From an uncultured Bacteroidaceae bacterium (GTDB taxonomy: Bacteria; Bacteroidota; Bacteroidia; Bacteroidales; Bacteroidaceae): 48,641 nucleotides of DNA. The notes beneath the pieces are model-generated. The model searched no databases. It was not told the DNA's origin and was given only the letters and a program-made list of their open reading frames with translations. The translations under genes were made by a program, and so were the position numbers. The stretch lies in assembly GCA_905234745.1 (NCBI GenBank), contig CAJOJD010000001.1, positions 1 to 48,641 on the forward strand, given 5' to 3'. Every line of letters begins with the position of its first letter. Within the stretch, counting starts at the first letter, position 1. This document shows, one piece after another, positions 13,055-29,305 of this stretch.

Positions 13055-13933
13055 ATGTCAATAACGATAAAAGGTTTAAGCCACTATTACCCCAACGGCA
13101 AGAGAGCGTTAACCGATATCAATCTTGAGATACCTTCCGGCATGTTCGGCCTGCTTGGGCCGAACGGAGCTGGAAAGTCCACTCTGATGCGTATCCTTGT
13201 AACTTTGATGGAACCTACCGAAGGTTCTGTCGATGTGTGCGGTTATGATATCCGCACGCAGCGCAAGGAGGTACGCCGCATATTGGGTTATCTGCCTCAG
13301 GATTTCCGCTTTTTTGCCAAGTACAAGGTTCGCGAGTTTCTTGAATACGCAGCTGCGCTGTCCGGTCTGACAAACTCATCGGAGCGTGGCAAGGCAGTTG
13401 ACGAGATGCTTGAGCAGGTTGGTCTGTATGAGGCCCGTGACCGTTATGCGCAGAACCTGTCGGGTGGTATGAAGAGACGTCTGGGTATTGCCCAGGCCCT
13501 TATCCATAAACCTATGGTTCTGGTGGTCGACGAGCCTACCACCGGTCTTGATCCGGAGGAGCGTATCAGGTTCCGCAATCTGTTGAGTGAAGCCAGCTCC
13601 AAGGATACCACGATCATCCTGTCAACGCATATAGTAGGTGACATATCGAGTTCATGTACCGAGATGGCCATGCTAAACCAGGGGCAGGTCATGTTCAGGG
13701 GTTCACCTGCCGGAATGCTCAAGGAGACCGAAGGCAAAGTCTGGCGTATGCAGGTTACCAATGAGCAGTATGCTGAGATAAATCAGAAATACGCAGTGAT
13801 ATCTACAATACCACATGGTCTGGGATGGGACCTGCAGGTCGTGGCAAAGGAGTGCCCCGGCTACGGTGCAGTGAATTATCCTCCAAACCTGGAGCATGCA
13901 TATGTTTATTTTACGGAGATAAAGGATAAGTGA
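13055..13933 (+). CDS. ABC transporter ATP-binding protein
   Basis: 292-residue cytoplasmic ATPase of the ABC-2 exporter class. The first strand and A-loop (GLSHYYPNGK) are followed by Walker A GPNGAGKST, Q-loop YLPQDF, signature LSGGMKRR, Walker B LVVDEPTTGLDPEE and the H-loop in LSTHIVGD, all intact. The last 80 residues are the usual accessory domain of such ATPases. The core around GMFGLLGPNGAGKST is strikingly close to the ABC domain at the C-terminus of the 1569-residue RND fusion four genes on, implying a common origin. Its stop overlaps the start of the permease gene, the likely membrane partner. Confidence 0.95.
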   Translation: MSITIKGLSHYYPNGKRALTDINLEIPSGMFGLLGPNGAGKSTLMRILVTLMEPTEGSVDVCGYDIRTQRKEVRRILGYLPQDFRFFAKYKVREFLEYAAALSGLTNSSERGKAVDEMLEQVGLYEARDRYAQNLSGGMKRRLGIAQALIHKPMVLVVDEPTTGLDPEERIRFRNLLSEASSKDTTIILSTHIVGDISSSCTEMAMLNQGQVMFRGSPAGMLKETEGKVWRMQVTNEQYAEINQKYAVISTIPHGLGWDLQVVAKECPGYGAVNYPPNLEHAYVYFTEIKDK

Positions 13934-16900
13934 TGGGGATTGGAATATATAACATACGCATAGTCTCCAAGTACGAGACAAAACTGCTTGTACGTGGCTG
14001 GTTCTTCAAGGTATTTGCCTTCCTGGCCATATTCGCGGCCATAATACTGGGATCGATATATATCCTTACGCAGTTCCCGCAACCCGAGGTGGTGAACCGT
14101 TCGGTCATTCCCTATATGTTCATGCTTATCATGAATGTGGGGCAGGCCGTAGTATCGGTTTTCCTGGCATCGGAATACCTTAAACGCGACAAGCAATTGG
14201 ATACGTCCGAGGTGTTCTACACCCGTCCGCTGAGTAATGCCGAGTATCTGCTGGGCAAGATGTGGGCCACTCTGAAAGTGTTCTTTGTACTGGACGTGAT
14301 AGTGGCGATGATAGCGCTGATCATGAGCCTTATAAAGTTCGGCGTCCATCTGGACTATCTGAGTTACATATGGTATTTCCTGTTGCTGTCAGTCCCCACG
14401 CTGGTGTTTATAGTGGGCCTTTCGACCACCCTGATGCTGATTCTGAACAATCAGGCCATCACGATGGTTATCCTGCTGGCATATATAGGCGTTACGCTGT
14501 TCTATATCGACAATCTCTACTATTACCTTTTTGACTATATAGGCTTCAACCTGCCCATGCTCAAGTCTGTGGTGACGGGATTCAGCGGATTGGACAGGCT
14601 GATAAACCACAGGTTGTGCTATCTGTTGCTTGGCATCGGCCTTATACTTACCGATGTCTCACTGTTCCATCGTCTTGCCAATTCACGTTACAGCCTGCTG
14701 CCGTGGCGTATTGCCGCAGTGGTCTTCCTGGCAGGTGGTCTGTACGCCGGTTACAGGCATATCCATCTGTATAAGGTCGATGAGAGATTCAGGGCCGATA
14801 TGGTGGAACTGGACAACAGATACGTGCATACAGGCGGTGCAGTGGCCCAGTCATGTGAACTTACCGTAACCCAGAGCGGCGATTCGCTGAACGTGAGGGC
14901 CGATATGACCGTAAGCCCCAGGGAGGACGGATCACAACTGGTATTCACGCTCAACCCCGGATTTAAGGTAAACGGCATCAGTTCGCCGGGCAACAATATG
15001 GAATTTGAGCGTCTGAAGCATCTTGTCGTGCTGACTTTTGACAGGACTCTGCGCAAGGACGAACCGATAAGGCTCACAATGGAATACGGCGGTATGGCCG
15101 ATGAGCGCATCTGTTATCTGGATGTAACTGACGAGAAACTTATTGAGAACGTAAAGGTTCTATCGCGCCTTAACGTCGGAAAGCGTTATCTGTTCCAGGA
15201 CAGGGAGTTTACCATGCTCACCCCCGAGAGTTACTGGTATCCGCGTCCCGGTGTGGCATTCAGTGACCAGAGCCCCGAGTGGCAGATGTCATATTTCACG
15301 GATTTCACGATCAATGTGACGCCGAATCCGGGACTGACTCCCATCTCACAGGGACTGTGCACTACAAACAGCGACTCAACGACATATACATTCAAACCGG
15401 AGTCTTCGCTGCCGTCCGTATCGCTTCTGATAGGTGACTACACACCCAAGTCGATGACGGTTGACTCTACTCTGTATACCGTATGGGAACTTGGTACCTG
15501 GGATGACCAGTTTGAGGTCTTTGACTCCATACGCGACACCATTCCGTTCTTTATACGCGATGTACGCAGGTATATGGAGTATCAGACCGAAATGGCATAT
15601 CCGTTCAAGCGTTTCTCCATAATTGAGGTACCTGCCCATTTCACATCATACAAACGTGTGTTTACATCGGCATACGAGCAGCTTCAACCCGAGATGGCGC
15701 TGGTTCATGAAAGGGGATATGACATGAGACTGTTCCAGTTCCGTAACCAGAAGCGTTCTTTCTCCGGCGGCCGTTTTAACCGTAGGGGAAACAACATGTC
15801 GGAGAAGGAGATACTGCAAAGCATATTGAGCAATGCATTGTATTTCATGTGGGAATCCGGCTCTTTCAGCGGTAACAGCCGGAACGGACAGTGGACAATG
15901 ACCCAGGTGGACAATCCGTACTATTACCTCCCGCTGTTCTACAATTTCCGATACAACATCTACTCGTCTGACTGGCCTATGGCAAACCGCATGGTTGAGT
16001 CAATGACGGTCGACGGCCAGAACAACGGCTCAATGTGGATGAGAAGGATGAACGGCCTTTCAGAGGATGAGAAGGCGCTTATCCTGATGGGCAAATACGG
16101 ATTTGACCGTATCATGTCGGATCCCGAATGGGAGGATCTGGCCGATAATGCCCTTGCTCTCAAGACAAAGGACTTCTTCGCCCCCATATCGGCCGTTATG
16201 GGTTATGAGCCGATGGTAGACTCCATAAGGGCCAAGACCAGGGAGAGGGCGTTTGCCAATGTATCATTTGATTCAATCCTGGATTGGGTGCAGAGTTATT
16301 CAGGTATAAGCCTTGAGGATAAGATTGAAGCCTGGAACGGGACAGCTCAGCTGGCCTGCTACAAGATAGGTACCCCCCAGATAACTACGGTCACCACTGA
16401 TACTGCGGATATCTATCAGGCTGAGGTCACGTTTGAGAACATATCGGACAATCCGGGTTATGTGAATGTGGAATTCGTGTTCTATGATCCGGAGAATGCT
16501 GGCGATGAGGACAAACCCAAGAGTATGGTGATAAGCGTGGATGCAGGTGAGACCCGCAAGATAGTGACGCACTGGTTCAATACTCCGGACAACATAAGCA
16601 TCAACACGATGCTGTCATCAAACCTGCCGCATGAGGTCAATCTGAACAATTCGGACTGGAGCACCTATGAGGGGACAAACCTGACAGCCGAAGGCGTTTA
16701 CACCGTACGCGGAGGAGTGGACAATACGCTTCCGGGTGAGATAATCGTGGATAATGAGGACAGCAGGCTGTTTTCACTCTCAAGACCTCTCCGTACCGGT
16801 TATCTCTCAAAATGGATAGACAAGGCCAAGGAGAAGAACAACGAGTTCATATACGAGGGATTCTCTGATTGGCGCACCTACAGCCAGTGGACTCTGGTGA

Positions 16901-17322
16901 CAGACCAGAACCTGTATGGTGACTACATACGTTCAGCCTATCTCATATCACCGGGTGACGGTAACCAGTATGCACGCTGGAGTATTCCTGTCGAGGTGGC
17001 AGGAGTGTATGACGTTTACTACTATGCAACGCCTACCATGTATCAGAACAACAACCGTAACCGCAGGTGGAACAACAATAACAACAACTGGAACAACAAT
17101 AACAACAACGGTCGTCGTGTGACCAACGATTACAACTTTGAGATAGGGCAGTTCAATACGAGCGACCACGTGTCAATGAACATGTGGCGAGCCGAGGAGG
17201 GCTGGAACCTGCTTGGAACGTTCCGTTTTGAAGCGGACACCGTAAGGGTTACCCTAAACAACAGGTCGGGCATCAGGATTATCGTGGCCGATGCCGTGAG
17301 ACTGGTAAAAAGAGAGAGATAA
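13933..17322 (+). CDS. ABC-2 type permease with large M1-like and golvesin-like extracytoplasmic region
   Basis: 1129 residues from the ATG that overlaps the preceding stop (TGATG); a GTG three bases earlier is possible. Residues 1 to about 275 carry seven predicted membrane helices (for example AIILGSIYIL, VIVAMIALIMSLI, IAAVVFLAGGLYAG). The following 500 or so residues resemble the M1 aminopeptidase fold, including PFKRFSIIEVPAHFTSYKR. Where the zinc motif HExxH is expected there is ALVHERGYDM, so the domain looks catalytically dead. A beta-sandwich stretch follows, then an Asn-rich tract at about 1040-1062 and a golvesin/Xly-like C-terminal domain (AGVYDVYYYATP to IIVADAVRLV). It presumably pairs with the upstream ATPase and uses the outer region to touch substrate or partners; this is inferred. 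Confidence 0.85.
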   Translation: MGIGIYNIRIVSKYETKLLVRGWFFKVFAFLAIFAAIILGSIYILTQFPQPEVVNRSVIPYMFMLIMNVGQAVVSVFLASEYLKRDKQLDTSEVFYTRPLSNAEYLLGKMWATLKVFFVLDVIVAMIALIMSLIKFGVHLDYLSYIWYFLLLSVPTLVFIVGLSTTLMLILNNQAITMVILLAYIGVTLFYIDNLYYYLFDYIGFNLPMLKSVVTGFSGLDRLINHRLCYLLLGIGLILTDVSLFHRLANSRYSLLPWRIAAVVFLAGGLYAGYRHIHLYKVDERFRADMVELDNRYVHTGGAVAQSCELTVTQSGDSLNVRADMTVSPREDGSQLVFTLNPGFKVNGISSPGNNMEFERLKHLVVLTFDRTLRKDEPIRLTMEYGGMADERICYLDVTDEKLIENVKVLSRLNVGKRYLFQDREFTMLTPESYWYPRPGVAFSDQSPEWQMSYFTDFTINVTPNPGLTPISQGLCTTNSDSTTYTFKPESSLPSVSLLIGDYTPKSMTVDSTLYTVWELGTWDDQFEVFDSIRDTIPFFIRDVRRYMEYQTEMAYPFKRFSIIEVPAHFTSYKRVFTSAYEQLQPEMALVHERGYDMRLFQFRNQKRSFSGGRFNRRGNNMSEKEILQSILSNALYFMWESGSFSGNSRNGQWTMTQVDNPYYYLPLFYNFRYNIYSSDWPMANRMVESMTVDGQNNGSMWMRRMNGLSEDEKALILMGKYGFDRIMSDPEWEDLADNALALKTKDFFAPISAVMGYEPMVDSIRAKTRERAFANVSFDSILDWVQSYSGISLEDKIEAWNGTAQLACYKIGTPQITTVTTDTADIYQAEVTFENISDNPGYVNVEFVFYDPENAGDEDKPKSMVISVDAGETRKIVTHWFNTPDNISINTMLSSNLPHEVNLNNSDWSTYEGTNLTAEGVYTVRGGVDNTLPGEIIVDNEDSRLFSLSRPLRTGYLSKWIDKAKEKNNEFIYEGFSDWRTYSQWTLVTDQNLYGDYIRSAYLISPGDGNQYARWSIPVEVAGVYDVYYYATPTMYQNNNRNRRWNNNNNNWNNNNNNGRRVTNDYNFEIGQFNTSDHVSMNMWRAEEGWNLLGTFRFEADTVRVTLNNRSGIRIIVADAVRLVKRER

Positions 17323-17340
17323 ATAAAATACAATCATTAT

Positions 17341-18846
17341 ATGACAAAGAAGAAATTTTTGATTACGGCATTTCTGGCGCTTGCAGCAGTTCCGGCATTT
17401 GAGACCGGAGCCCGGGCACAGATGGTGCTTACCATGGAGCAGGCTTTGGAATACAGCGCAGAGCATAATCCCGACCTGATCAACTCCCGCATGAGCATGG
17501 AACGGTATGAGCAGAACCTCATAGCCCAGAGGGCTTCACTGAAATCAAGGTTCTCACTCAATCTTACACCGATTTCATACTCACAGTCACGTCAGTTTGA
17601 CAGCCGTTTCTCTGATTGGTACACCAACCGCTCGTTGTCATCATCGGGTACGTTCAGCATATCGCAGCCCATTATCTGGACTGATGCCACGCTGTCACTC
17701 AACAACAGTCTGTCATGGCAGAACAACGAGTCGACCATAGGCGGTACCACCAACAGCAACCGCGCTTTCAGTAACAGTCTTTATCTGAGTCTGAACCAGC
17801 CTATCTTCACGTACAACAGGACCAAGATGAACCTGCGCCAGATTGAGATGAACTATGAGAATGCCCGTATAAGTTACGCCCTGCAGCTGCTTAACGTGGA
17901 GCGCAACATCACCAGCCAGTTCTACAGTCTTTTCACGGCACAGCAGAACCTGGAGATAAGTGAAAAGGAACTTGAGAATGCCGAGAAGAACTTCAACATC
18001 ATCAAGGATAAGGTAGAGGCAGACCTGGTTACAAAGGATGAGTTCTATCAGGCTGAACTTAACCTGGCCCAGTCCCGTTCAAGTCTGGAGAACCAGAGGG
18101 TGAGCCTGGAGAATTCAAAAGACAATTTCAAACAGGCTCTGGGTATTCCTCTTGAGGAGGATATCATAGTGGTATGCGATATCTCTGCCGAGCCGGTCTA
18201 TGTGGATTTCGACAAGGCTCTTGAGAGTGCCACCAAATCCAGACTGGAGCTCAGACAGCGTCAGATACAGAGGGAACAGCAGGAGATGTCTATGGTACAG
18301 GTCAAGGACAATGACAGTTTCAGCGGTAACATATCGTTGTCAGTAGGTATTATGGGCGATGACCCCGAATTCCCCCACGTCTATGACAACCCCACCAACA
18401 ACCCGCGTGTAGCAGTCACTTTCAGCGTACCTATCTTTGACTGGGGTGCAAGAAAGGCCCGCATCAAGGCAGCCGAGATTGAACGCAAGATGTTTGAGCT
18501 GAGTGCCGATGAGGAACTCAAGAGCATAGAGATGAACCTGCGCAGCACATGCCGCAGCCTGGACAATCTGTTGGGACAGATATCAATAGCCGAACAGAGC
18601 CAGCAGAACGCTCAGTTGACATATGACCTCAACGAGGAGCGCTACCGCAACGGCGAGCTTACCGGTATGCAGATGAACCAGTTCCAGACACAGCTGTCAA
18701 ACAGCAAGATGTCATATACACAGGCAATAATCAACTATAAGGTACAGCTTCTGAACATAAAGATCCTTACGCTTTATGATTTTGAGAAGGATGAGCCTGT
18801 GGTTCCCATCACCTATGAACAGAGTACGGACAAAAAGAAGAAATAA
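17341..18846 (+). CDS. TolC family outer-membrane efflux channel
   Basis: 501 residues with a signal peptide (cleavage near residue 27, ARAQ). The two repeated coiled-coil regions typical of TolC/OEP proteins are visible at about 160-270 (SLFTAQQNLEISEKELENAE) and 370-470 (LLGQISIAEQSQQNAQLTYD), separated by beta-strand segments that build the outer-membrane barrel (Thr/Ser/Asn-rich at 70-150). It supplies the exit duct for the neighbouring adaptor and RND proteins. It starts 18 bases after the permease gene and ends six bases before the adaptor gene. Confidence 0.95.
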   Translation: MTKKKFLITAFLALAAVPAFETGARAQMVLTMEQALEYSAEHNPDLINSRMSMERYEQNLIAQRASLKSRFSLNLTPISYSQSRQFDSRFSDWYTNRSLSSSGTFSISQPIIWTDATLSLNNSLSWQNNESTIGGTTNSNRAFSNSLYLSLNQPIFTYNRTKMNLRQIEMNYENARISYALQLLNVERNITSQFYSLFTAQQNLEISEKELENAEKNFNIIKDKVEADLVTKDEFYQAELNLAQSRSSLENQRVSLENSKDNFKQALGIPLEEDIIVVCDISAEPVYVDFDKALESATKSRLELRQRQIQREQQEMSMVQVKDNDSFSGNISLSVGIMGDDPEFPHVYDNPTNNPRVAVTFSVPIFDWGARKARIKAAEIERKMFELSADEELKSIEMNLRSTCRSLDNLLGQISIAEQSQQNAQLTYDLNEERYRNGELTGMQMNQFQTQLSNSKMSYTQAIINYKVQLLNIKILTLYDFEKDEPVVPITYEQSTDKKKK

Positions 18847-18852
18847 TAAAAA

Positions 18853-19923
18853 ATGAAACAGTATATGAAATCAGGAATCAGAGTACTTACGCTGACTGCG
18901 CTCACAGTCTTGATGGCTGGATGCAGACAAGAGAACACGATGAACCGCAATGAGATACCCACACCGGTATCCGTATCGGACATTACCTATGGCTCCATAA
19001 GCAGAGTCTTCACCACCAACAGCACGGCGATATCGAACGCCGAGGCTGAACTGTCAACCGAGATGGCCGGTAAGTATCATCTCCAGAAGAACCCGGCTAC
19101 CGGCAAACCTTACAAACTTGGCGACAAGGTAAAGAAGGGTGCCCTGATAGTACGTATTGAGGACAAGGCGTATGAGAACAGCATCTCAATAGAGAGCAAG
19201 CGCCTGAATCTGGAACTGGCCGAGCAGGAGCAGGCCAAGACCAAGTCACTTTATGACAAGGGTGGCGCTACGCTGACAGAGGTCAAGAATTCTGAGGTAA
19301 AGATCATGAATTCACGCCTTGACTATGAGAACGCCGAGATGAATCTGGAGAAGATGAATATACGCGCTCCGTTTGACGGCGTGATCGTGAACCTGCCTCA
19401 TTTCTCGGAGGAATCCAAACTGAACAGCGGTACATCGGTCGTAACCATCATGGACTACAGCTCGATGCTGCTTGAGATTAACCTCCCCGAGAGCGCCATC
19501 AATGAGGTGAAAGTGGGCCAGAAGGCATACATCACCCATTATACGCTCCCCAATGACACTATCATCGGTGAGATTACCGAGCTCTCTCCGGCCATCAGCG
19601 CCGAGACCCGCACATTCAAGGGCAAACTTGTCATCAACAACAAGGATCTGCTCATCAGACCGGGTATGTTCGTGAAGGCCGACATTGTCACCGAGAGCCA
19701 CAGTTCAACAATCATCATACCCAAGAACATTGTACGCAACGAGCGTAACCGCCGTCTGGTATTCGTGGTTGACCAGGGTATTGCCAGGGCAAAACAGGTT
19801 CGTCTTGGCCTTGAGGAGAAGAACCAGGTTGAGGTACTGGGCGGACTTGATAAGGATGATCAGCTGATCATTCGCGGTTTTGAGACTTTGAGAGACGGTT
19901 CAAAGGTAAAGATCCAGAGATAA
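18853..19923 (+). CDS. periplasmic adaptor subunit (MFP/HlyD family) of RND efflux pump
   Basis: 356-residue lipoprotein with lipobox LMAGC (Cys24), placing it in the periplasm on the inner membrane. The order of domains follows AcrA-type adaptors: a beta-barrel/lipoyl half (YKLGDKVKKGALIVRIEDKAY), a helical hairpin (SIESKRLNLELAEQEQAKTK to DYENAEMNLEKM), the second lipoyl half (IRAPFDGVIV), a beta barrel and the membrane-proximal domain (GLEEKNQVEVLGGLDKDDQLIIRG). It bridges the TolC channel encoded upstream and the RND pump encoded seven bases downstream. Confidence 0.95.
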   Translation: MKQYMKSGIRVLTLTALTVLMAGCRQENTMNRNEIPTPVSVSDITYGSISRVFTTNSTAISNAEAELSTEMAGKYHLQKNPATGKPYKLGDKVKKGALIVRIEDKAYENSISIESKRLNLELAEQEQAKTKSLYDKGGATLTEVKNSEVKIMNSRLDYENAEMNLEKMNIRAPFDGVIVNLPHFSEESKLNSGTSVVTIMDYSSMLLEINLPESAINEVKVGQKAYITHYTLPNDTIIGEITELSPAISAETRTFKGKLVINNKDLLIRPGMFVKADIVTESHSSTIIIPKNIVRNERNRRLVFVVDQGIARAKQVRLGLEEKNQVEVLGGLDKDDQLIIRGFETLRDGSKVKIQR

Positions 19924-19930
19924 AAGAAGG

Positions 19931-22900
19931 ATGAAAAAACTTGTAAGTTGGGCTGTCAGGAATCCGGTCACCGTCACTATGGCGGTGCTGGCCATCCTGC
20001 TGCTCGGAAAGATATCATATGACAGGCTGAGCGTGGAACTGCTTCCCAGCATGAACAGCCCCCGCCTGTTTGTCGAGATAGACGCCGGCGAGCGTCCGCC
20101 CGAAGAGATTGAGAAACAGTTCGTGCGCAGCATGGAGTCTCAGATCGCGCGTCAGAGTGACGTGCGCAATGTCTCATCGGTCGTAAAAGTGGGTACCGCC
20201 CGTATAACGGTGGAGTACGCATGGAGAAAGAACATGGACGAGGCGTTCCTGGATCTGGAGAAGGCCATGAGCAGTTTCAGCCAGGACAGCCGCGTAACCG
20301 ACCTTAGAATATCGCAGAAGGATCCCACCACGGCTCCCATCATGATACTGGGTTTCTCAAATCCGGATATCACCGATATGGCCGAGCTGCGCAAGGTGGC
20401 CGACTCTTATGTGTGCAACGAACTCATGAGAGTTGAGGGCGTGGCCGATGTATCGCTTGCCGGTGACGAGTTCACCAATCTGGTAATCGAGGCCGATCCC
20501 TATAAGCTGCAGGCATTCGGCATAACCGTTGACAATATCTCATCCCGTATCCAGGAGAACAACCAGAGGGTATCGGGCGGCAGAATACAGGAACAGGGTT
20601 TCCAGTATCTGATAACGGGTACCAACTCATTGACCGACGAGGCTGCATTCGGCAATATCATTGTGGGTTATAAAAACACCGAGGCCGCACAGCAGGGCGC
20701 ACGTCTGGGCGAGTTTGAATCGGCCAGCATGGCACCTATCTACCTGCGTGACGTGGCTGCCATCCACTTTGAGAACCGTGAGCCCGAGAACATTGTCCGC
20801 GTGAACGGAAACCGCAGTATAGGCATCTCCATTTTCAAGGAGATGGATTACAATACAGTTAAAGCTGTAGAAGGTATCAAGACAAGCCTGACCAAGATTC
20901 AGAAATCTCTGCCCGGATATGAGGTCAACATAATAAGTGACCAGGCTACGTTCATAAACAACTCCATCGGTGAGGTAAAGAACAGTGCCCTGCTGGGTGT
21001 GCTCCTGGCGGTTATAGTGCTGTTCGTGTTCCTGCGCAGGGTGGGGACCACACTTATCGTGGCCGTTTCAATCCCGGTTTCCATTATCGCCACTTTCAAC
21101 CTGATGTTCTTCAGCGGACTGACCATAAACATACTTACGTTGGGAGGTCTTGCGTTGGGTGCGGGTATGCTTGTAGATAATGCCATCGTCGTCATAGAAA
21201 GCATATTCCGAAACCAGGAGCGTGGGCTTTCGGTCCGCGACGCCGCAGTTACCGGTACCTCCGAGGTGGCCGGTGCGGTATCGGCCTCAACCCTTACCAC
21301 AATCGTGGTATTCCTGCCTATCGTATATCTGCACGGTGCTACCGGAGAACTCTTCAAGGATGAGGCATGGACCGTTACGTTCTCACTGCTCTCATCACTG
21401 TTCGTGGCTATTCTGGTTATACCTACGCTGTATGACAAGATATTCGGACGCAAGAAAGCAACACCCCTAAAGAATTTCAGTTCGGTAAACATCAAGGGCT
21501 ACGCCTCATTCCTCAAGAAGCTTGTGGGCTGGCGCTGGCTGGTCATACTGTGCGCTGTGATCCTGGTTGCCGGAACGGTGTTCCTGCTGCCGTACGTGGG
21601 TACCGAGTTCATGCCCAAGACCGATGCCAATACCATAAACGTAAAGGTGCGTATGGCTGAGGGTACAAGTCTTGAACGTACATCGTCCACACTTGAAAGC
21701 CTTGAGAATCTTGTGTTTGACCTGTCTCAGGATCCCGAATGTGTGATTTATACTCATGTGGGACCGGGTGCGTCATCCCAGAACATGGATTTTGAGGGTG
21801 AGAATACCGCGACAATGAAGATCCAGCTCTCCAAGCAATCGGCAGTTTCTCCCGATTACCTTACCGAGGTTCTGTCATCCTATATTAACGGAGTAGAGGG
21901 TATGGAGCTCTCATTCACTCAGGACGAGAACTCGTTGAACTCAATGATGGGAACCGAGGATGCTCCGCTGGTCGTTGAGATCAAGGGTGAGGACCTGGAT
22001 CTGCTGGCTGCCCTTACCAACCAGGTGAAGGCCGCCGTGGATTCCATTGACTGCCTGTATAACGTAGAGAGTTCACTGGCTGGCGGTGCTCCTGAGATAA
22101 TAATCACGGTTGACCGCGCCATTGCCGGTATGAACAATATCAACGTATCCACCATAATCACCCAGATACAGCAGCATCTTGCCGGACGTGAAGCCGGACA
22201 GATGGATTACAAGGGTGATATGAGGGATATCAGCATCAAGGTTCCCGGCGTTTCGCTCTCTGATCTGAACAGCATGGTCATCACATCGGGCCAGAAGGAC
22301 TTCCGTCTGATAGAGCTTGCCCAGATAAGCGAAAGTACCGCTCCCAAGGAGATCTACCGTCTCAATCAGAACCGCGTAACCCGTGTTACGGCCGATATAG
22401 ACGAGTCAGTATCACTTGACAAGGCGGCTCAGCGCACCAGAGATGCGGTTCGTGGCATTGAACTTCCGCAGAACTACTCCATTACCGTAACCGGTGAGGA
22501 GGAGCGCCGTGCAGAGTCCATGAACAGCCTGCTGCTGGCACTGCTGCTGTCAATAGTACTGGTATACATGGTGATGGCTTCGCAGTTTGAATCACTGCTG
22601 CATCCGTTCACCATCCTGCTTACCATTCCTCTGGCTTTGGTGGGTGCCGTACTGATGTTCCTGGCAACGGGTATTACAGTGAATATAATGGGTATCATAG
22701 GTATGGTGATGCTGGCCGGTATCGCGGTCAACAACTCCATTATCCTGGTGGACCGTATAGGACAGCTTAAGGATTCAGGTCTGAGCCTGACCGATGCTAT
22801 CGCAGAGGCAGGTCAGCAGCGTATCCGTCCTATCCTTATGACCAGTCTTACCACAATCCTGGCACTTGTGCCTATGGCATTGGGAATAGGCGAGGGTGCA

Positions 22901-23029
22901 TCCCTGAGCTCACCCATGGCCATTGCCGTGATAGGCGGTCTGGTTACCTCGACACTGCTCAGTCTTGTGGTGATACCTTGTGTTTATTACGTATTTGAAA
23001 GCGCCAAAATAAGGATTACGGGAAAATGA
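19931..23029 (+). CDS. RND efflux transporter permease (first copy)
   Basis: 1032-residue inner-membrane pump with the 12-helix, two-large-loop layout of the AcrB/MdtBC superfamily: TM1 near residue 15-30, a first porter loop, TM2-6 at about 345-500, TM7 near 535, a second loop, and TM8-12 at about 855-1025. In TM4 the AcrB pair Asp407-Asp408 is Asp416-Asn417 (LVDNAIVVIES). In TM10 the Lys940 position is Asn934 (AVNNSIILVD). These changes are seen in other Bacteroidota RND proteins and do not prove loss of proton coupling. The stop overlaps the start of the second RND gene (ATGA), which suggests a coupled, possibly hetero-oligomeric pair as in MdtBC. Confidence 0.95.
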   Translation: MKKLVSWAVRNPVTVTMAVLAILLLGKISYDRLSVELLPSMNSPRLFVEIDAGERPPEEIEKQFVRSMESQIARQSDVRNVSSVVKVGTARITVEYAWRKNMDEAFLDLEKAMSSFSQDSRVTDLRISQKDPTTAPIMILGFSNPDITDMAELRKVADSYVCNELMRVEGVADVSLAGDEFTNLVIEADPYKLQAFGITVDNISSRIQENNQRVSGGRIQEQGFQYLITGTNSLTDEAAFGNIIVGYKNTEAAQQGARLGEFESASMAPIYLRDVAAIHFENREPENIVRVNGNRSIGISIFKEMDYNTVKAVEGIKTSLTKIQKSLPGYEVNIISDQATFINNSIGEVKNSALLGVLLAVIVLFVFLRRVGTTLIVAVSIPVSIIATFNLMFFSGLTINILTLGGLALGAGMLVDNAIVVIESIFRNQERGLSVRDAAVTGTSEVAGAVSASTLTTIVVFLPIVYLHGATGELFKDEAWTVTFSLLSSLFVAILVIPTLYDKIFGRKKATPLKNFSSVNIKGYASFLKKLVGWRWLVILCAVILVAGTVFLLPYVGTEFMPKTDANTINVKVRMAEGTSLERTSSTLESLENLVFDLSQDPECVIYTHVGPGASSQNMDFEGENTATMKIQLSKQSAVSPDYLTEVLSSYINGVEGMELSFTQDENSLNSMMGTEDAPLVVEIKGEDLDLLAALTNQVKAAVDSIDCLYNVESSLAGGAPEIIITVDRAIAGMNNINVSTIITQIQQHLAGREAGQMDYKGDMRDISIKVPGVSLSDLNSMVITSGQKDFRLIELAQISESTAPKEIYRLNQNRVTRVTADIDESVSLDKAAQRTRDAVRGIELPQNYSITVTGEEERRAESMNSLLLALLLSIVLVYMVMASQFESLLHPFTILLTIPLALVGAVLMFLATGITVNIMGIIGMVMLAGIAVNNSIILVDRIGQLKDSGLSLTDAIAEAGQQRIRPILMTSLTTILALVPMALGIGEGASLSSPMAIAVIGGLVTSTLLSLVVIPCVYYVFESAKIRITGK

Positions 23030-26000
23030 GTTTGAAATCCAAGTCATTTATTGACCGCAGGGTAACCATATGCATGGCGCTGGTGGCGTTGACGCTGCTG
23101 GGCTACTTCTCGTACAAGCAGTTGCCGGTTGAGCTGCTGCCTAATACGGAACTGCCCCAACTCTATATAACCGCCAATTCCCGTAGTGACCTCACTCCGG
23201 CCTACATGGAGCAGCAGGTGGTGATTCCGCTTGAGGGTGCCATAAGCGCCGTAGGTGGTGTCGAGAACATGGAATCGACGGTATCGGGCAGACAGGGCTC
23301 CATAAGGGTTGACTTCAAGAGAGGAACCAATCTCAAGATGACGACCGTGAAGCTGCAGGAGAAGATCAGTTCCATACGCGGCGATTTCCCGACCGATGTC
23401 ACCGTCAATGTCCAACAGGCCAACCTGAACGGTATCAGTAACCAGTTCATGTCACTTCAGGTACGCGGATCGGGCGGTGTAGACCGTCTGAGAGCCATTG
23501 TCGATAAGGATGTGGTACCGCGTCTGGAGAGCATCGACGGAATTGCCGGCGTGACGGTTTACGGAGGACGTGTCAAATCCATAGAGATCCGTTCCAATAC
23601 GGAGGCCATGGAGGCATTGCACATAACCAACAGTCAGATAAGCCAGGCATTGAGCCAGTATAACCAGGAGCGTACCTTCCTGGGCTTTATCAGCGAGCCT
23701 GACCGCAAGTACTATGTGCAGCTTGACGCCAACTACGATGACGTGTCGCAGGTTGAGAACCTGGTAGTTGCCCAAGGTCCCATCTATCTTAAGAATGTGG
23801 CGACCGTCTTCTTTGACTATAAGGAGGAGACAACCATAAGCCGTGTGAACGGTATGGACGCCATATCGGTTTCATTGGTAAACGGAGCAGGTGAGAACCT
23901 TCTGAACCTCTCCAAGAGAACCCTTAAGCGTATTGATGAAATCAACCGTGAGATTGCCGGTCAGGATATGCAGCTTGTGGTGCAGTCCAACTCGGCCGAC
24001 CAGATAAGCAACAACATATCGCAGATAGTCAAACTGGCTTTGATAGGCGGTCTGCTGGCCATTCTGGTGCTGTGGTTCTTCCTGCGCAACTTCAGTCTGG
24101 TGTTCTTCATAGCACTGTCAATACCGGTTTCAATATTATCGGCATTCAATGTATTCTACGCCGCTGACATATCGATCAACACGCTTACCCTTATAGGTAT
24201 GGCGTTGGCCATAGGTATGTTGCTGGACAGCAGTATAGTGGTGCTGGAGAACATATACCGGCTTGCATCCATGGGAATGCCGCCGCGACTGGCGGCCCTG
24301 CAGGGTGTAAAGGAGGTGCGCAAAGCCCTTATAGCATCTACGCTTACCACCATCACAGTGTTCCTGCCGTTCGTCTTCTCTGACGAGCCGATGATCAAGC
24401 TGCTGGGTAGGAATATCGGCTTCTCAATCATATCTACGCTGATATTCTCGCTTCTGATAGCTGTAACGTTCATACCAATGGCAACAGCAGCAATGATGGA
24501 GCGCGGCGGCGGAGGCAACAGCGTCTTCTTCAAGAAGATGTCCATACATGACCGTCCGTTGCAGATGTACTCTACACTGCTCAAGACATGCCTGCGCAAG
24601 CCTGGACCGACTGTGGGAACAGCTGTGGCAGTTCTGGTTATTGCCTTCATATTCGCACTGTCGCGCAATACCGGTCAGAACCGTCAGGTGGACAGCGACC
24701 GTGTCAACGTGAACATAACCATGCCTACCGGCAGTACCCTGGATGATACGGACGAGGCAACTGCGATGCTTGAGGCACGTCTGGACAGCTTTGACCTTAA
24801 GAAAGATGTCATAAGCCGTATCCAAGAGGAGCAGGCGTCAATCACCGTTACCCTGAAGGACGGATACAACAAGAAGGACGGTATGACCATCAGCCAGATC
24901 GTAGAGCATCTTAGCGATGAACTGGCACTTGAGAATGAGATCGATGTCCGCGTGACGGCAGGTTATGCCCGCGGAAACCAGAATGCATCGGGCCTGAGTT
25001 CACTGACCCGTTTCATGAGCGTGCTGGGCGTGGGCGACAATACCGAGAGGATAGTCGTGAAGGGTTCCGATACGGAAACCATGCGTATAGTGTCCAACAA
25101 CCTCAGGTACTATCTGGAGCAGTTGGAGTTTGTGCGTGATGTCCGCGTTGACAACCCGGGCGGCCGCCGCGAGGTTCAGCTTACCTTTGATCCGGTGGCT
25201 ATGGCGTCGTACAATATCACCAACCAGCAAATCACATCGGCCCTGAATTCAATGAACCGCTCTACGAATTCAGGAGCAAGTTTCAAGGTGGGTACCGATG
25301 AATATGACATCGTCATAATGGATGACCTCACCGAAGAAGAGGAGGAGATGAGGGCTTGGGAAAAGACGCTCGATGACCTGCGTCGCGTCACCGTGACCGA
25401 TGCCAACGGCGGAATGCATGAACTCCAGCAGCTGGCAACGATACGTCTTAGCCGCGGACCGTCCGAGGTACGTCGCGTAAACCGTGACCGCCGCGTGAAC
25501 GTGACCTACGCCATCTCACAGAGCGAGGACTTGCCCAAGGATGTACTGGATGGTTATCATGACCAGATTGATGACCTGATAGCCAATTACAACCTGCCTT
25601 CGGGACTGGCACTCGAGGTTCAGCGTGGAGATGACTCCACAAGTGAGTTCAAGTTCCTGATACTGGCATCCATCATCCTGATATTCATGATACTGGCATC
25701 GGCATTCGAGTCACTGACCACGCCTATAGTGCTTCTGTTCTCAATACCTCTGGCAGCTATCGGTTCGCTGTTGGCTCTGCTGCTTTCGGGCAACAGCCTG
25801 ATGAATGCCAATACCCTGACAGGATTCCTGATACTGCTGGGTATCGTGGTCAACAACGGTATCATACTCATAGACTATTCGTCTACGTTGCGACGCAGGG
25901 GCTACGGCCGAATGCGTGCAATCATGACCAGCGGATATTCGCGCCTGAGACCTATCTGTATCACTACCATCACCACCATCGTGACGCTTATCCCGATGGC

Positions 26001-27735
26001 TATGGGTGACAACGAGTATGCAGGTGCAATCGGCGCCCCGTTCGCATTGACGGTGATAGGCGGTCTGACATTCTCGGCCGTACTTACCCTGCTGCTTATT
26101 CCTACGCTCTACATATCGTTCGAGAACATGAGGGCATGGTATAAGGGACTGGGTCGATACACGCATATTCTGCATATCATACTATTTGCAGTGGGTCTGA
26201 CAGTGATCTTCACGAGCGTGAGGGGCATATTCATGATACTCCTTTACATAATCGTGCTGGCTCTTGTCATTCCTGGTGTAACATACTTCATAAAGAGTTC
26301 GGTAAGGTTTGCACGCAAGGATATCGTCAAGCAGGATGAGCCGATTGTCATTGAGGTCCGCAACCTGGTAAAGGTATATGACTGGTACAGCCTGTTCCTG
26401 CGTCAGTGGCGCAGCGGTATCAATATCCGCCGCCGTCTTGGACTGTCCCGCACCTTCCATCACGCAAAGGATTTCGTGAGCCTGCTGTGGCAGGTAGTGG
26501 TATTCGGATACACCGGTTATCTGGCCGGTTGGTATTTCGAGAAGGAGTTCTGGATACTGCTTATGACCATCATTACGCTGGCCGGCATAAACAATATCCT
26601 TAAGGCCGTACTTGAGTATATCGGATACAAATTCAAGGGTGGGGCAAAGGCAGTCTCAATCATAAAGAAGATTCTCTACTGGCTGCTGCCCGTATGTGCA
26701 ATGATATTCCTTAGCCATAAGATTGAGAGCAAGGGATTCATGGTATTCATAGCAGTAGTTTGGATTCTGGGTCTCTGCATCAGCAAGACAGCAGACTACC
26801 TCTATGCAAACAACATAAACGTGGAGCGTCTCAAGGGCGAGACAGCCGGTATGCGCCGTGCATGGTTCGTGTTCGTAAAGAGCATTCCCATCATCGGCAA
26901 ACGCAAGAAACCGTTCAAGGCACTGCGTGGCGTATCGTTCGAGATTCACAGCGGTATGTTCGGTCTGCTTGGACCTAACGGAGCCGGTAAGTCCACGTTC
27001 ATGCGCATTGTGACCGGTATCCTGCGCCAGAGTTACGGAACGGTGTTCATCAACGGTATGGATACTCTCAAGTACAGGGAGGAGCTGCAGAGCCTTATCG
27101 GCTTCCTGCCTCAGGAGTTCGGCATGTACGAGTCCATGAGCGCATGGGATTTCCTGAACTACCAGGCCATCCTTAAGGGCATTACCGATGAGAAAGTCCG
27201 TAACGAGAGACTGGATTACGTGCTCAAGTCAGTGCACATGTATGAGCAGCGCAATGCAGAGATAGGATCGTTCTCGGGCGGTATGAAGCAGCGTATAGGT
27301 ATTGCGCTTATCCTGCTCAACCTTCCGCGCATACTTGTGGTCGATGAGCCTACTGCAGGTCTTGACCCCCGTGAGCGCATACGTTTCCGTAACCTGCTGG
27401 TAGAGTTGAGCCGTGACCGTATCGTGATATTCTCAACCCATATCATTGAGGATATTGCAAGTTCGTGTAACCAGGTTGTGGTCATTGAGAAGGGTTCGCT
27501 CAAGTACTTCGGAGAGCCCAACGACATGGTCAAGATGGCCAAGGACAAGGTATGGTTGTTTGACATTGAGGCACCCCGTCTGGGTGAACTTGACGAGAAA
27601 CTCATTGCCAACCATATCCAGGACGGCGACAAGATCAAGGTGCGTTACATTTCGCCCACATGCCCGTGGCCGGGTGCCGAGCTTGCAGAGCCCAACCTGG
27701 AGGATGCATACCTGTGCCTGTTGAAAAATCTATAA
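23026..27735 (+). CDS. RND efflux permease fused to an ABC ATPase domain
   Basis: One uninterrupted 1569-codon frame. Residues 1 to about 1040 are a full RND pump; TM4 has Asp401-Ser402 (LLDSSIVVLEN) and TM10 has Asn943-Asn944. Two extra helices follow at about 1050-1098. Residues 1106-1118 (PIVIEVRNLVKVY) look like the first strand and A-loop of an ABC ATPase. About 178 residues with four predicted helices then intervene, and the ABC domain resumes at FKALRGVSFE. It carries Walker A 1316-1324 (GPNGAGKST), signature 1416-1420 (FSGGM), Walker B ending Asp1440-Glu1441, and H-loop His1472, all intact. The ABC-2 permease gene follows after 13 bases. Inferred: the ATPase serves that permease or directly powers or gates the RND complex. 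Confidence 0.93.
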   Translation: MSLKSKSFIDRRVTICMALVALTLLGYFSYKQLPVELLPNTELPQLYITANSRSDLTPAYMEQQVVIPLEGAISAVGGVENMESTVSGRQGSIRVDFKRGTNLKMTTVKLQEKISSIRGDFPTDVTVNVQQANLNGISNQFMSLQVRGSGGVDRLRAIVDKDVVPRLESIDGIAGVTVYGGRVKSIEIRSNTEAMEALHITNSQISQALSQYNQERTFLGFISEPDRKYYVQLDANYDDVSQVENLVVAQGPIYLKNVATVFFDYKEETTISRVNGMDAISVSLVNGAGENLLNLSKRTLKRIDEINREIAGQDMQLVVQSNSADQISNNISQIVKLALIGGLLAILVLWFFLRNFSLVFFIALSIPVSILSAFNVFYAADISINTLTLIGMALAIGMLLDSSIVVLENIYRLASMGMPPRLAALQGVKEVRKALIASTLTTITVFLPFVFSDEPMIKLLGRNIGFSIISTLIFSLLIAVTFIPMATAAMMERGGGGNSVFFKKMSIHDRPLQMYSTLLKTCLRKPGPTVGTAVAVLVIAFIFALSRNTGQNRQVDSDRVNVNITMPTGSTLDDTDEATAMLEARLDSFDLKKDVISRIQEEQASITVTLKDGYNKKDGMTISQIVEHLSDELALENEIDVRVTAGYARGNQNASGLSSLTRFMSVLGVGDNTERIVVKGSDTETMRIVSNNLRYYLEQLEFVRDVRVDNPGGRREVQLTFDPVAMASYNITNQQITSALNSMNRSTNSGASFKVGTDEYDIVIMDDLTEEEEEMRAWEKTLDDLRRVTVTDANGGMHELQQLATIRLSRGPSEVRRVNRDRRVNVTYAISQSEDLPKDVLDGYHDQIDDLIANYNLPSGLALEVQRGDDSTSEFKFLILASIILIFMILASAFESLTTPIVLLFSIPLAAIGSLLALLLSGNSLMNANTLTGFLILLGIVVNNGIILIDYSSTLRRRGYGRMRAIMTSGYSRLRPICITTITTIVTLIPMAMGDNEYAGAIGAPFALTVIGGLTFSAVLTLLLIPTLYISFENMRAWYKGLGRYTHILHIILFAVGLTVIFTSVRGIFMILLYIIVLALVIPGVTYFIKSSVRFARKDIVKQDEPIVIEVRNLVKVYDWYSLFLRQWRSGINIRRRLGLSRTFHHAKDFVSLLWQVVVFGYTGYLAGWYFEKEFWILLMTIITLAGINNILKAVLEYIGYKFKGGAKAVSIIKKILYWLLPVCAMIFLSHKIESKGFMVFIAVVWILGLCISKTADYLYANNINVERLKGETAGMRRAWFVFVKSIPIIGKRKKPFKALRGVSFEIHSGMFGLLGPNGAGKSTFMRIVTGILRQSYGTVFINGMDTLKYREELQSLIGFLPQEFGMYESMSAWDFLNYQAILKGITDEKVRNERLDYVLKSVHMYEQRNAEIGSFSGGMKQRIGIALILLNLPRILVVDEPTAGLDPRERIRFRNLLVELSRDRIVIFSTHIIEDIASSCNQVVVIEKGSLKYFGEPNDMVKMAKDKVWLFDIEAPRLGELDEKLIANHIQDGDKIKVRYISPTCPWPGAELAEPNLEDAYLCLLKNL

Positions 27736-27748
27736 AAGGAATTGAACG

Positions 27749-28465
27749 ATGTCAGCATTAGATACATTTAAATCTTTCGGAAAGTTGTGCGGCTACAACA
27801 TGAGGATAATATTCTCCGGCAAGTTCATATGGTTCCTGCTGGTGGGCCTGGCCCTGTTCTTCTTCCTTATGTTTGCCGCCGCATCAAGAGGCACGGAACT
27901 CAGTCATGAGATGGTTTACAGCCAGCTGATCATTCCCGGTCTGCTGCTGGTATTCTATCCGTCATGTTTCGGCATCCAGAATGACGCCGATCACCGCATA
28001 CTGGAGCTTCTGTTCGGTATTCCCAACTACATGTACAAGGTGTGGCTGTTCCGCCTGGTTATGATATACGTTGAGGTGTATTTTATCCTGGTGGTTTACG
28101 CATTCCTGGCCAGAATCCTTCTGTATCCGGTACAGCCGTTCTCAATGGCGCTGAACCTGATGCTTCCGGTCATACTTTTCGGCAATCTGGCATTCCTGTA
28201 CTCCACGCTCATACGCAACGGAAACGCCGCTGCCGTGATGTCAGTGATTTCACTGATACTGGTTATGGTGCTTGGAAACGTTCCGCTGATTGAGAACAAG
28301 GTCTGGGACGTCACGATAAATCCCTATGAGGAGCCCGAGAACATAAACGCCGCCATCTGGAGCGTAATTCTTCTTAAGAACCGCATCCTTATGATTGTTG
28401 CGGCTATCGTATTCCTTATGTCCGGTCTGCTTGGCTTGCAGAACCGCGGGAAGTTCTTAGGATAA
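27749..28465 (+). CDS. ABC-2 type permease
   Basis: 238 residues, six predicted membrane helices (FIWFLLVGLALFFFLMFAA, IIPGLLLVFYP, YVEVYFILVVYAFLA, LMLPVILFGNLAFLY, MSVISLILVMVLG, IVAAIVFLMSGLLG), the size and layout of an ABC-2 exporter membrane subunit without its own ATPase. It is the last gene of the operon, ending six bases before a strong palindromic terminator. The nearest candidate ATPase partner is the C-terminal ABC domain of the preceding RND fusion. Its substrate is unknown. Confidence 0.88.
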   Translation: MSALDTFKSFGKLCGYNMRIIFSGKFIWFLLVGLALFFFLMFAAASRGTELSHEMVYSQLIIPGLLLVFYPSCFGIQNDADHRILELLFGIPNYMYKVWLFRLVMIYVEVYFILVVYAFLARILLYPVQPFSMALNLMLPVILFGNLAFLYSTLIRNGNAAAVMSVISLILVMVLGNVPLIENKVWDVTINPYEEPENINAAIWSVILLKNRILMIVAAIVFLMSGLLGLQNRGKFLG

Positions 28466-28520: not shown

Positions 28521-29146
28521 TTACTCGACAGACTTCTTTCCGTTAATGATGTGGATACCCTTGTTCAACTTGCGGGAGTTGTTATCCAACTTGCGTCCCT
28601 GCAGGTCGTATACGGATTCTGCATCATTTGCGTTCAGGATATCCTGGATTCCGGTGATACCCAGTTCGATGTCAATTACCATAGGCTCGTCGGGAGTTCC
28701 GTAGATAGAATTGGTCTCGTAGATGAGAGTCTGCGGTACCTCTGTTATCTTGTCGCCTACGGCAATCTTCAAGGTCAGAGTGCAGGCCTCGTCACCGGGG
28801 ATGGTGAGGTAGGCTATGCCGTCTGCCTGGGTGGTTGCTGCTGCACGGCATTCGTCACCGGCGAATACACCCAGTTGAGCATTGCTTAAGGGTGCACCGT
28901 GTCCGATTATCTTGGCTGCCATGATGGCGTTGTCAGGATAGTTGCGGTAGTTGACGGGGCTGAATGTCTGGTTAGCCTGGTTCTCGTTAGCACGCTCAGG
29001 AGCACGCTGGGGTGCTGCGTTGACGATGGTTCCGGGGTGGGTGAATGACATCTGATCGGCGCCGATCATCAGTTTGTAACCCATACCGGGCTGCAGCATC
29101 ACAAGTGAGCCGCCCCATTCGTAGCTGTCCCAATAAGCGACACCGG
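28521..29146 (-). pseudogene. 3' fragment of a secreted protein with C-terminal sorting-like tail
   Basis: The open frame runs to 29288, but the part that looks protein-like begins near SGVAYWDSYEWGGSL at about 29146. Bacteroidales cell-surface proteins carry a similar DSYxWGGSL...PGMGYKLM segment deep inside much longer polypeptides. The C-terminus (ESVYDLQGRKLDN to KGIHIINGKKS) matches the tail found on many secreted Bacteroidales proteins. There is no signal peptide, and the residues upstream of 29146 look random. Read as the 3' end of a larger gene whose 5' part was lost. It could still be expressed as a short ORF, but no export signal remains. Confidence 0.6.
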
Positions 29147-29149
29147 AAC

Positions 29150-29305
29150 GGAACGTATGAGGACTTTGTAGAGTATGATGTAATAAATCGAACATCTTCT
29201 GGTGCTCCCAAACGTACTTATGACAGACGCAATTATGTTGAGAAACCGTTGCCGGCACTTGCACCGCCTGTAGTAGTCGGTCATTCATGGCGTGAGGCTA
29301 AGTAA
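29150..29305 (+). pseudogene. possible 3' fragment of an unrecognised gene
   Basis: A plus-strand frame, about 50 codons from TYEDFVEYDVINRT to the end VVVGHSWREAK, has a plausible C-terminal composition but no start or ribosome site of its own, since it continues the antisense of the minus-strand fragment. The family is not recognised. Together with the minus-strand fragment it would mark a deletion that removed the 5' ends of two divergent genes. Low confidence. Confidence 0.3.

Follow-up and report, generated by a model that had tools for sequence, protein, structure and literature searches.

The RND-ABC fusion gene

The window analyzed here is a stretch of 48,641 nucleotides from an uncultured Bacteroidaceae bacterium (contig CAJOJD010000001.1), and its principal feature is a single plus-strand gene, RND2::NBD2 (23026..27735), that joins a permease of the resistance-nodulation-division (RND) superfamily to a nucleotide-binding domain (NBD) of the ATP-binding cassette (ABC) type. 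By the open reading frame listing and its translation, the gene starts with ATG and encodes 1569 amino acids without an internal stop. Its RND part, RND2, comprises residues 1-1033 (23026..26124), with a Pfam ACR_tran match at residues 6-1032 that covers profile positions 3-1020 of 1021 (E 6.9e-167) and with MdtB as the best PDB match. A linker with two predicted transmembrane (TM) helices follows (residues 1034-1108; 26125..26349), where hydropathy peaks at 1051-1069 and 1072-1090 in 30 members coincide with helices in the AlphaFold2 model. The ABC part, NBD2, begins with a strand at residues ~1109-1118 (26350..26379; residues 76-85 of the model), continues with an apparent four-TM insertion at residues ~1119-1296 (26380..26913; alignments A1 and A4 and AlphaFold2 helices) and ends with the remainder of the domain, which carries the Walker A, Q-loop, signature, Walker B and H-loop motifs, and a C-terminal extension (26914..27735). 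Pfam ABC_tran is matched over its entire profile (1-137 of 137) by residues 1300-1444 (E 4e-25). The initial annotation, which described one 1569-codon frame holding a full RND permease and an ABC domain with all of its motifs, is borne out by the open reading frame, the Pfam matches and the motif columns.

The catalytic motifs of NBD2 comprise a Walker A GPNGAGKST from residue 1316, the Q-loop residue Q1363, a signature from S1417, the Walker B residues D1440 and E1441 and the H-loop residue H1472. Walker A, the Q-loop Q, the signature SGG, the Walker B D and E and the H-loop H are invariant in 93/93 distinct relatives, the only variation being at Walker A position S1323 (S in 60 rows, T in 33). 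These relatives were picked by the linker profile alone (121 loci with 96 distinct C-terminal ends, 93 of them reaching the motifs); an earlier 30-row set, for which a text pattern of Walker A and LPQ was one of the criteria and which lacks L069 and the cut L074, gives biased counts. Alignment A3 excludes L069, L074 and L078, A5 consists of the window and 21 loci, and A6 of the window and 20 of the 29 available loci.

The ABC ATPase had also been called complete, which holds for its catalytic motifs and not for the contiguity of the domain, as the alignments and the AlphaFold2 model place a membrane insertion of ~178 residues directly after the first strand. In the fold matches, isolated solved NBDs align with the model from model residue 71-75. 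As aligned and modeled, NBD2 is split, with the four-TM insertion separating the first strand from the rest of the domain. No Pfam family is matched by more than 2/30 members of the insertion at E 0.1, the match list of a fold search that included the insertion was filled by the NBD, and the linker has one match among PDB sequences, ribosomal and at chance level. Natural fusions from two genomes (L150 and L151) have a two-TM insertion in the NBD instead of the four-TM one, and the fusion L152 has a long Gly/Ser/Asp-rich loop at the insertion site. Judged from these variant sequences, the insertion in NBD2 is tolerant of large change.

Conservation and distribution of the fusion

The RND-ABC fusion is a real, evolutionarily conserved protein. 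One copy was found in the source genome, an 80% complete draft broken into 115 contigs. In so fragmented a draft, an assembly or annotation error might join two genes, but such an artefact is vanishingly improbable and was ruled out because the same frame recurs in independent genomes of several phyla. Within the genus, the full-length fusion is present in 24/37 genomes (the source genome and 36 others) at 84-100% identity, with two more in pieces at contig edges. The same scan of other families of the order detected the fusion or its RND2 part in 5/24 genomes, of which two have it intact (G059 and G043) and the other three have it truncated at contig ends. In a wider draw from the order, the linker occurs in 52/393 genomes, and in 41/325 at ≥90% completeness and ≤5% contamination. 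Forty-four of the 52 linkers lie inside one frame of 1515-1640 amino acids; the other eight lie in frames of 504-1334 amino acids, all of which reach a contig end or start within ~100 bases of one.

A draw from the phylum with the narrower profile A1 gave 6/395 genomes. Farther afield, the fusion occurs in 9/40 genomes of the phylum of a metagenome-assembled genome (MAG) titled Calditrichaeota, in 9/132 genomes of the phylum of a Zixibacteriota MAG and in 2/16 of that of a Latescibacterota MAG. In the first of these phyla, one of the nine copies contains an internal stop, and a further one (L076) is divided by a stop. Genomes beyond the home phylum are mostly drafts, in which MAG contamination may be present. 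The L076 stop, a single in-frame codon within RND2 (L076 12518-12520) in the fusion gene of a MAG titled Calditrichaeota, could reflect decay or a sequence error. Named isolates with the fusion include Prolixibacter bellariivorans, Draconibacterium mangrovi, Marivirga sericea, Parabacteroides massiliensis, Maribellus maritimus and Bacteroides sp. 224. Among the 80 loci listed, at least 31 carry RND2 together with the linker (of these, L074 ends before the NBD and L076 is interrupted by its stop) and the other 49 are without the linker.

Separate genes at this place in related genomes, which would speak for an artificial joining, did not appear: neither an intact unfused RND2 nor a stand-alone split NBD was present among the genomes examined. 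The RND2 type was detected in 53/393 genomes of the order draw; the two RND2 without a linker match (G050 and G614) break off at contig ends, and in G688 the linker is present with the RND part lost at the contig start. Plasmid carriage was considered and rejected. A tblastn search of PLSDB returned at least 5000 records, and among the matches listed all best places are below 60% identity; one place covers ≥80% of the query, at 24.8% identity, and is annotated as separate RND and ABC genes. Ten PLSDB rows were inspected for annotation, of which 8 name separate genes and 2 are unannotated.

Partner genes and gene order

The fusion is the sixth of seven plus-strand genes, in the order NBD1, TMD1pep, OEP, MFP, RND1, RND2::NBD2 and TMD2. 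NBD1 (13055..13933) is a stand-alone ABC ATPase of 292 amino acids, 41-43% identical to the fused NBD2, and ATPase motifs are present in its window copy. In other copies, 5/17 rows miss the Walker A pattern, three by starting inside the motif (L061, L068 and L083) and two with deviating letters (GKSS in L058 and GANGAGKS in L065). TMD1pep (13930..17322) combines an ABC-2-like membrane domain, a large M1-aminopeptidase-like domain and a golvesin-type C-terminal domain. The Pfam family ABC2_membrane_2 is matched by 11/22 TMD1pep members (best E 5.4e-07), with no match for the window copy alone. The M1-like domain, which is probably periplasmic, has the M1 fold, and the HE..H zinc motif is absent in 21/22 rows; the sole match, at L076 residue 409, falls early in the M1-like region and, as judged by position, off the expected zinc-helix site.

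Downstream lie OEP (17341..18846), a TolC-type outer-membrane factor (Pfam OEP, E 7.8e-50), MFP (18853..19923), an RND periplasmic adaptor (TIGR01730 RND_mfp, 188.3 bits against a cut-off of 94.9) with a lipoprotein-like N-terminus by inspection, and RND1 (19931..23029), a complete RND permease (Pfam ACR_tran, E 5.5e-216) with ~30% identity to RND2. The stop of RND1 and the start of the fusion overlap by 4 bases (23026-23029). TMD2 (27749..28465) begins 13 bases past the fusion stop and encodes a six-TM protein of 238 amino acids, a putative ABC-2 half-permease.

All seven genes occur in this one order in 20/31 fusion loci; in the remaining loci, NBD1 lies beyond the fetched stretch in 4 and the contig ends first in 7. 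Among the 20, the TMD1pep frame is broken in L056 and L057, and in the latter OEP is broken as well. TMD2 directly follows the fusion in 29/29 loci in which the contig continues. In the order draw, the 52 of 393 genomes with the linker are exactly those in which the TMD2 family was found, and linker and TMD2 are adjacent on one strand in 51/52; in G527 the contig has no room and TMD2 lies on another contig. The conserved gene order and the exact co-occurrence of TMD2 support the earlier suggestion that an ABC exporter has been recruited to a tripartite RND pump.

Relation to known systems

As in HAE-type tripartite pumps, a full-length RND permease shares its operon with an adaptor and an outer-membrane factor, and as in MdtABC and MuxABC, which likewise have an MFP and an OEP, two different RND genes adjoin. 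Among PDB sequences, both RND1 and RND2 match MdtB (9lyq) best. The present system differs from these pumps in that RND2 carries an NBD, the D408 and K940 residues are replaced, and the operon adds two ABC ATPases and two ABC-type membrane proteins. MacAB-TolC is alike in that an ABC ATPase is encoded with an adaptor and a TolC-type channel, but here the NBD is C-terminal on an RND protein and apparently split by the membrane insertion, rather than N-terminal on its own permease as in MacB. A third likeness is to the GldA, DrrA and ABCA-like ATPases that work with ABC-2 permeases. GldA and DrrA are the best NCBIfam models for the NBD, ABCA chains lead the PDB matches to ABC proteins and, together with NosDFYL chains, also appear among the fold matches; in contrast to these families, the present NBD reaches the curated cut-off of none of the 25 NCBIfam families listed and is both fused and, as modeled, split. 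The layout of NBD1 and TMD1pep is that of the Bacteroidota pair of an ABC ATPase and an ABC-2/M1-aminopeptidase permease, and five loci of related fusion-free ATPases also have a long frame after the ATPase. The present pair differs in having a peptidase-like domain without HEXXH and in lying within an RND operon.

Proposed mechanism and alternatives

That the seven-gene operon encodes one envelope-spanning composite RND-ABC exporter, an ABC-2-like exporter tethered to a two-RND tripartite pump, is an evenly balanced proposal. RND1, RND2, MFP and OEP would form the tripartite pump, with RND1 and RND2 probably in mixed trimers like the MdtB2C1 heterotrimer stated in a passage of PMC7015380. The two extra TM helices would join RND2 to the membrane-embedded NBD2, which may pair with the separate NBD1, and the two NBDs would power an ABC-2-like exporter composed of TMD1pep and, as the putative second ABC-2 half, TMD2. 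The outer part of TMD1pep would serve as a dead M1-peptidase-like binding domain. A hydrophobic or peptide-like substrate, removed by the ABC half from the inner leaflet or the cytoplasm, would go straight to the RND porter domain, which would expel it across the outer membrane. In its simplest reading, this gene set (a pair each of NBDs, candidate ABC membrane halves and RND permeases, with a single adaptor and a single outer-membrane channel) would give an ABC heterodimer and an RND heterotrimer that share one exit duct. Tripartite pumps can take over substrates from single-component pumps. The latter are described in a passage of a review as moving drugs from the cytoplasm to the periplasm (PMC8277102). 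The fusion would make such a relay a physical one.

The same gene set bears on the alternative of two independent transporters, one RND and one ABC, that are merely tethered and co-regulated without hand-off or a shared cycle. The domains do retain a full-length match or a motif set each, but the operon has a single TolC-type channel and a single adaptor, the fusion and gene order are kept across phyla, and the NBD's own membrane insertion exceeds the needs of a simple tether. This alternative is considered unlikely.

Several results weigh against the composite exporter. The first concern TMD2, which had been proposed as an ABC-2 permease; six hydrophobic peaks in its hydropathy profile make the assignment plausible, while family matches are limited to 1/21 members for ABC2_membrane_3 (2.6e-4) and 1/21 for ABC2_membrane_2. 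NCBIfam gives TMD2 one weak, unrelated match, no match was found among PDB sequences, and a profile comparison of TMD1pep with TMD2 is not significant (probability 1.9). In a tree of 25 of the 27 other loci, 29 NBD2 rows (without L078, whose sequence is too short) and 17 selected NBD1 rows, the NBD1 rows form one supported group, and the sisterhood of NBD1 and NBD2 has a support of 81/88, with a long-branch row from another genome inside the set beside NBD2. The remaining results concern the proton relay, numbered after E. coli AcrB. The D408 equivalent of RND2 is replaced in 50/50 rows (N in 25, S in 22 and T in 3), its K940 equivalent is N in 92/92 rows having that residue, and in RND1 both equivalents are N in 6/6 sampled rows; in AcrB, substituting such a relay residue abolishes extrusion, according to a passage of PMC8277102.

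The relay replacements would fit an ATP-assisted RND pump, in which NBD2, alone or paired with NBD1, gates or drives the RND cycle and TMD1pep and TMD2 are accessory. Such a pump would also suit an NBD2 that is covalently attached to RND2 in every intact case seen and apparently held in the membrane by helices of its own. It is nevertheless distinctly unlikely. The TM4 motif is DN in 54/70 motifs of unfused pumps from other phyla (L084-L132), none of which has a linker; this set was retrieved in part by the NN motif, so that its TM10 count (68 NN, 1 KN) is biased. As the DN/NN relay is common in linker-free pumps, the loss of D408 and K940 is not tied to the ABC domain; the DN type characterizes an RND subtype and is alone no proof of a takeover by ATP. 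A role free of ABC membrane domains would also leave unexplained the co-occurrence of TMD2 with the fusion in 52/52 genomes. Other RND proteins of the same genome have DD (L003 and L006) and K (L003 and L005) at the relay positions, and in L008 the relay motif was not found.

The same replacements might be seen if the RND part had been reduced to a scaffold or passive conduit serving an ATP-driven exporter, in the manner of MacAB. This is quite improbable, as the D407 equivalent of RND2 is D in 50/50 rows, R971 is R in 93/93 and T978 is T in 92/93, all three are kept in 12/12 sampled RND1/RND2 rows, and the ACR_tran match is full-length.

Dual energization, as raised in the initial annotation, is compatible with the invariant NBD motifs and the retained D407 and R971 of RND2, but D408 and K940 are replaced in both RND proteins. 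The composite exporter may represent a new kind of exporter, in which ATP-driven ABC and proton-driven RND engines are covalently joined in series with the membrane-anchored split NBD as coupling element, and which is older than the split between Bacteroidota and related phyla or has spread among them; this broader view is tentative, and held with somewhat more doubt than confidence.

RND and ABC exporters are regarded as two distinct superfamilies, each with an energy source of its own. The initial annotation knew of no functional description of such a fusion, and full-text literature searches (without preprints and most subscription journals) found no published account of one; the passages containing the relevant terms in a long review of tripartite systems (PMC8277102) mention no RND-ABC fusion. 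Database entries annotated with this combination of domains may nevertheless exist. The conserved fusion and its constant partners make the series coupling of inner-membrane ABC and RND export directly testable, and allow one to ask whether RND pumps with a DN/NN relay need another energy input. They also bring up an uncharacterized protein family, TMD2, and an unusual NBD topology with its predicted split by a membrane insertion.

Flanking genes

Downstream of TMD2, a 255-amino-acid frame on the minus strand (28521-29288) has no Pfam match, and its end gives the impression of a secretion-sorting tail. By eye, no shared regulator stood out among the flanking frames listed for ten stretches. 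Upstream of the operon, a family-9 glycosyl hydrolase (Pfam Glyco_hydro_9 and CelD_N; 10398-13040, plus strand) ends 14 bases before NBD1, and in the close relative L044 NBD1 likewise comes after a frame that shares this C-terminus. In Marivirga (L210, 953-3644, minus strand), frames resembling by eye a GntR-type regulator, an ABC ATPase and membrane proteins lie before NBD1 on the same strand and are a possible extension of the operon.
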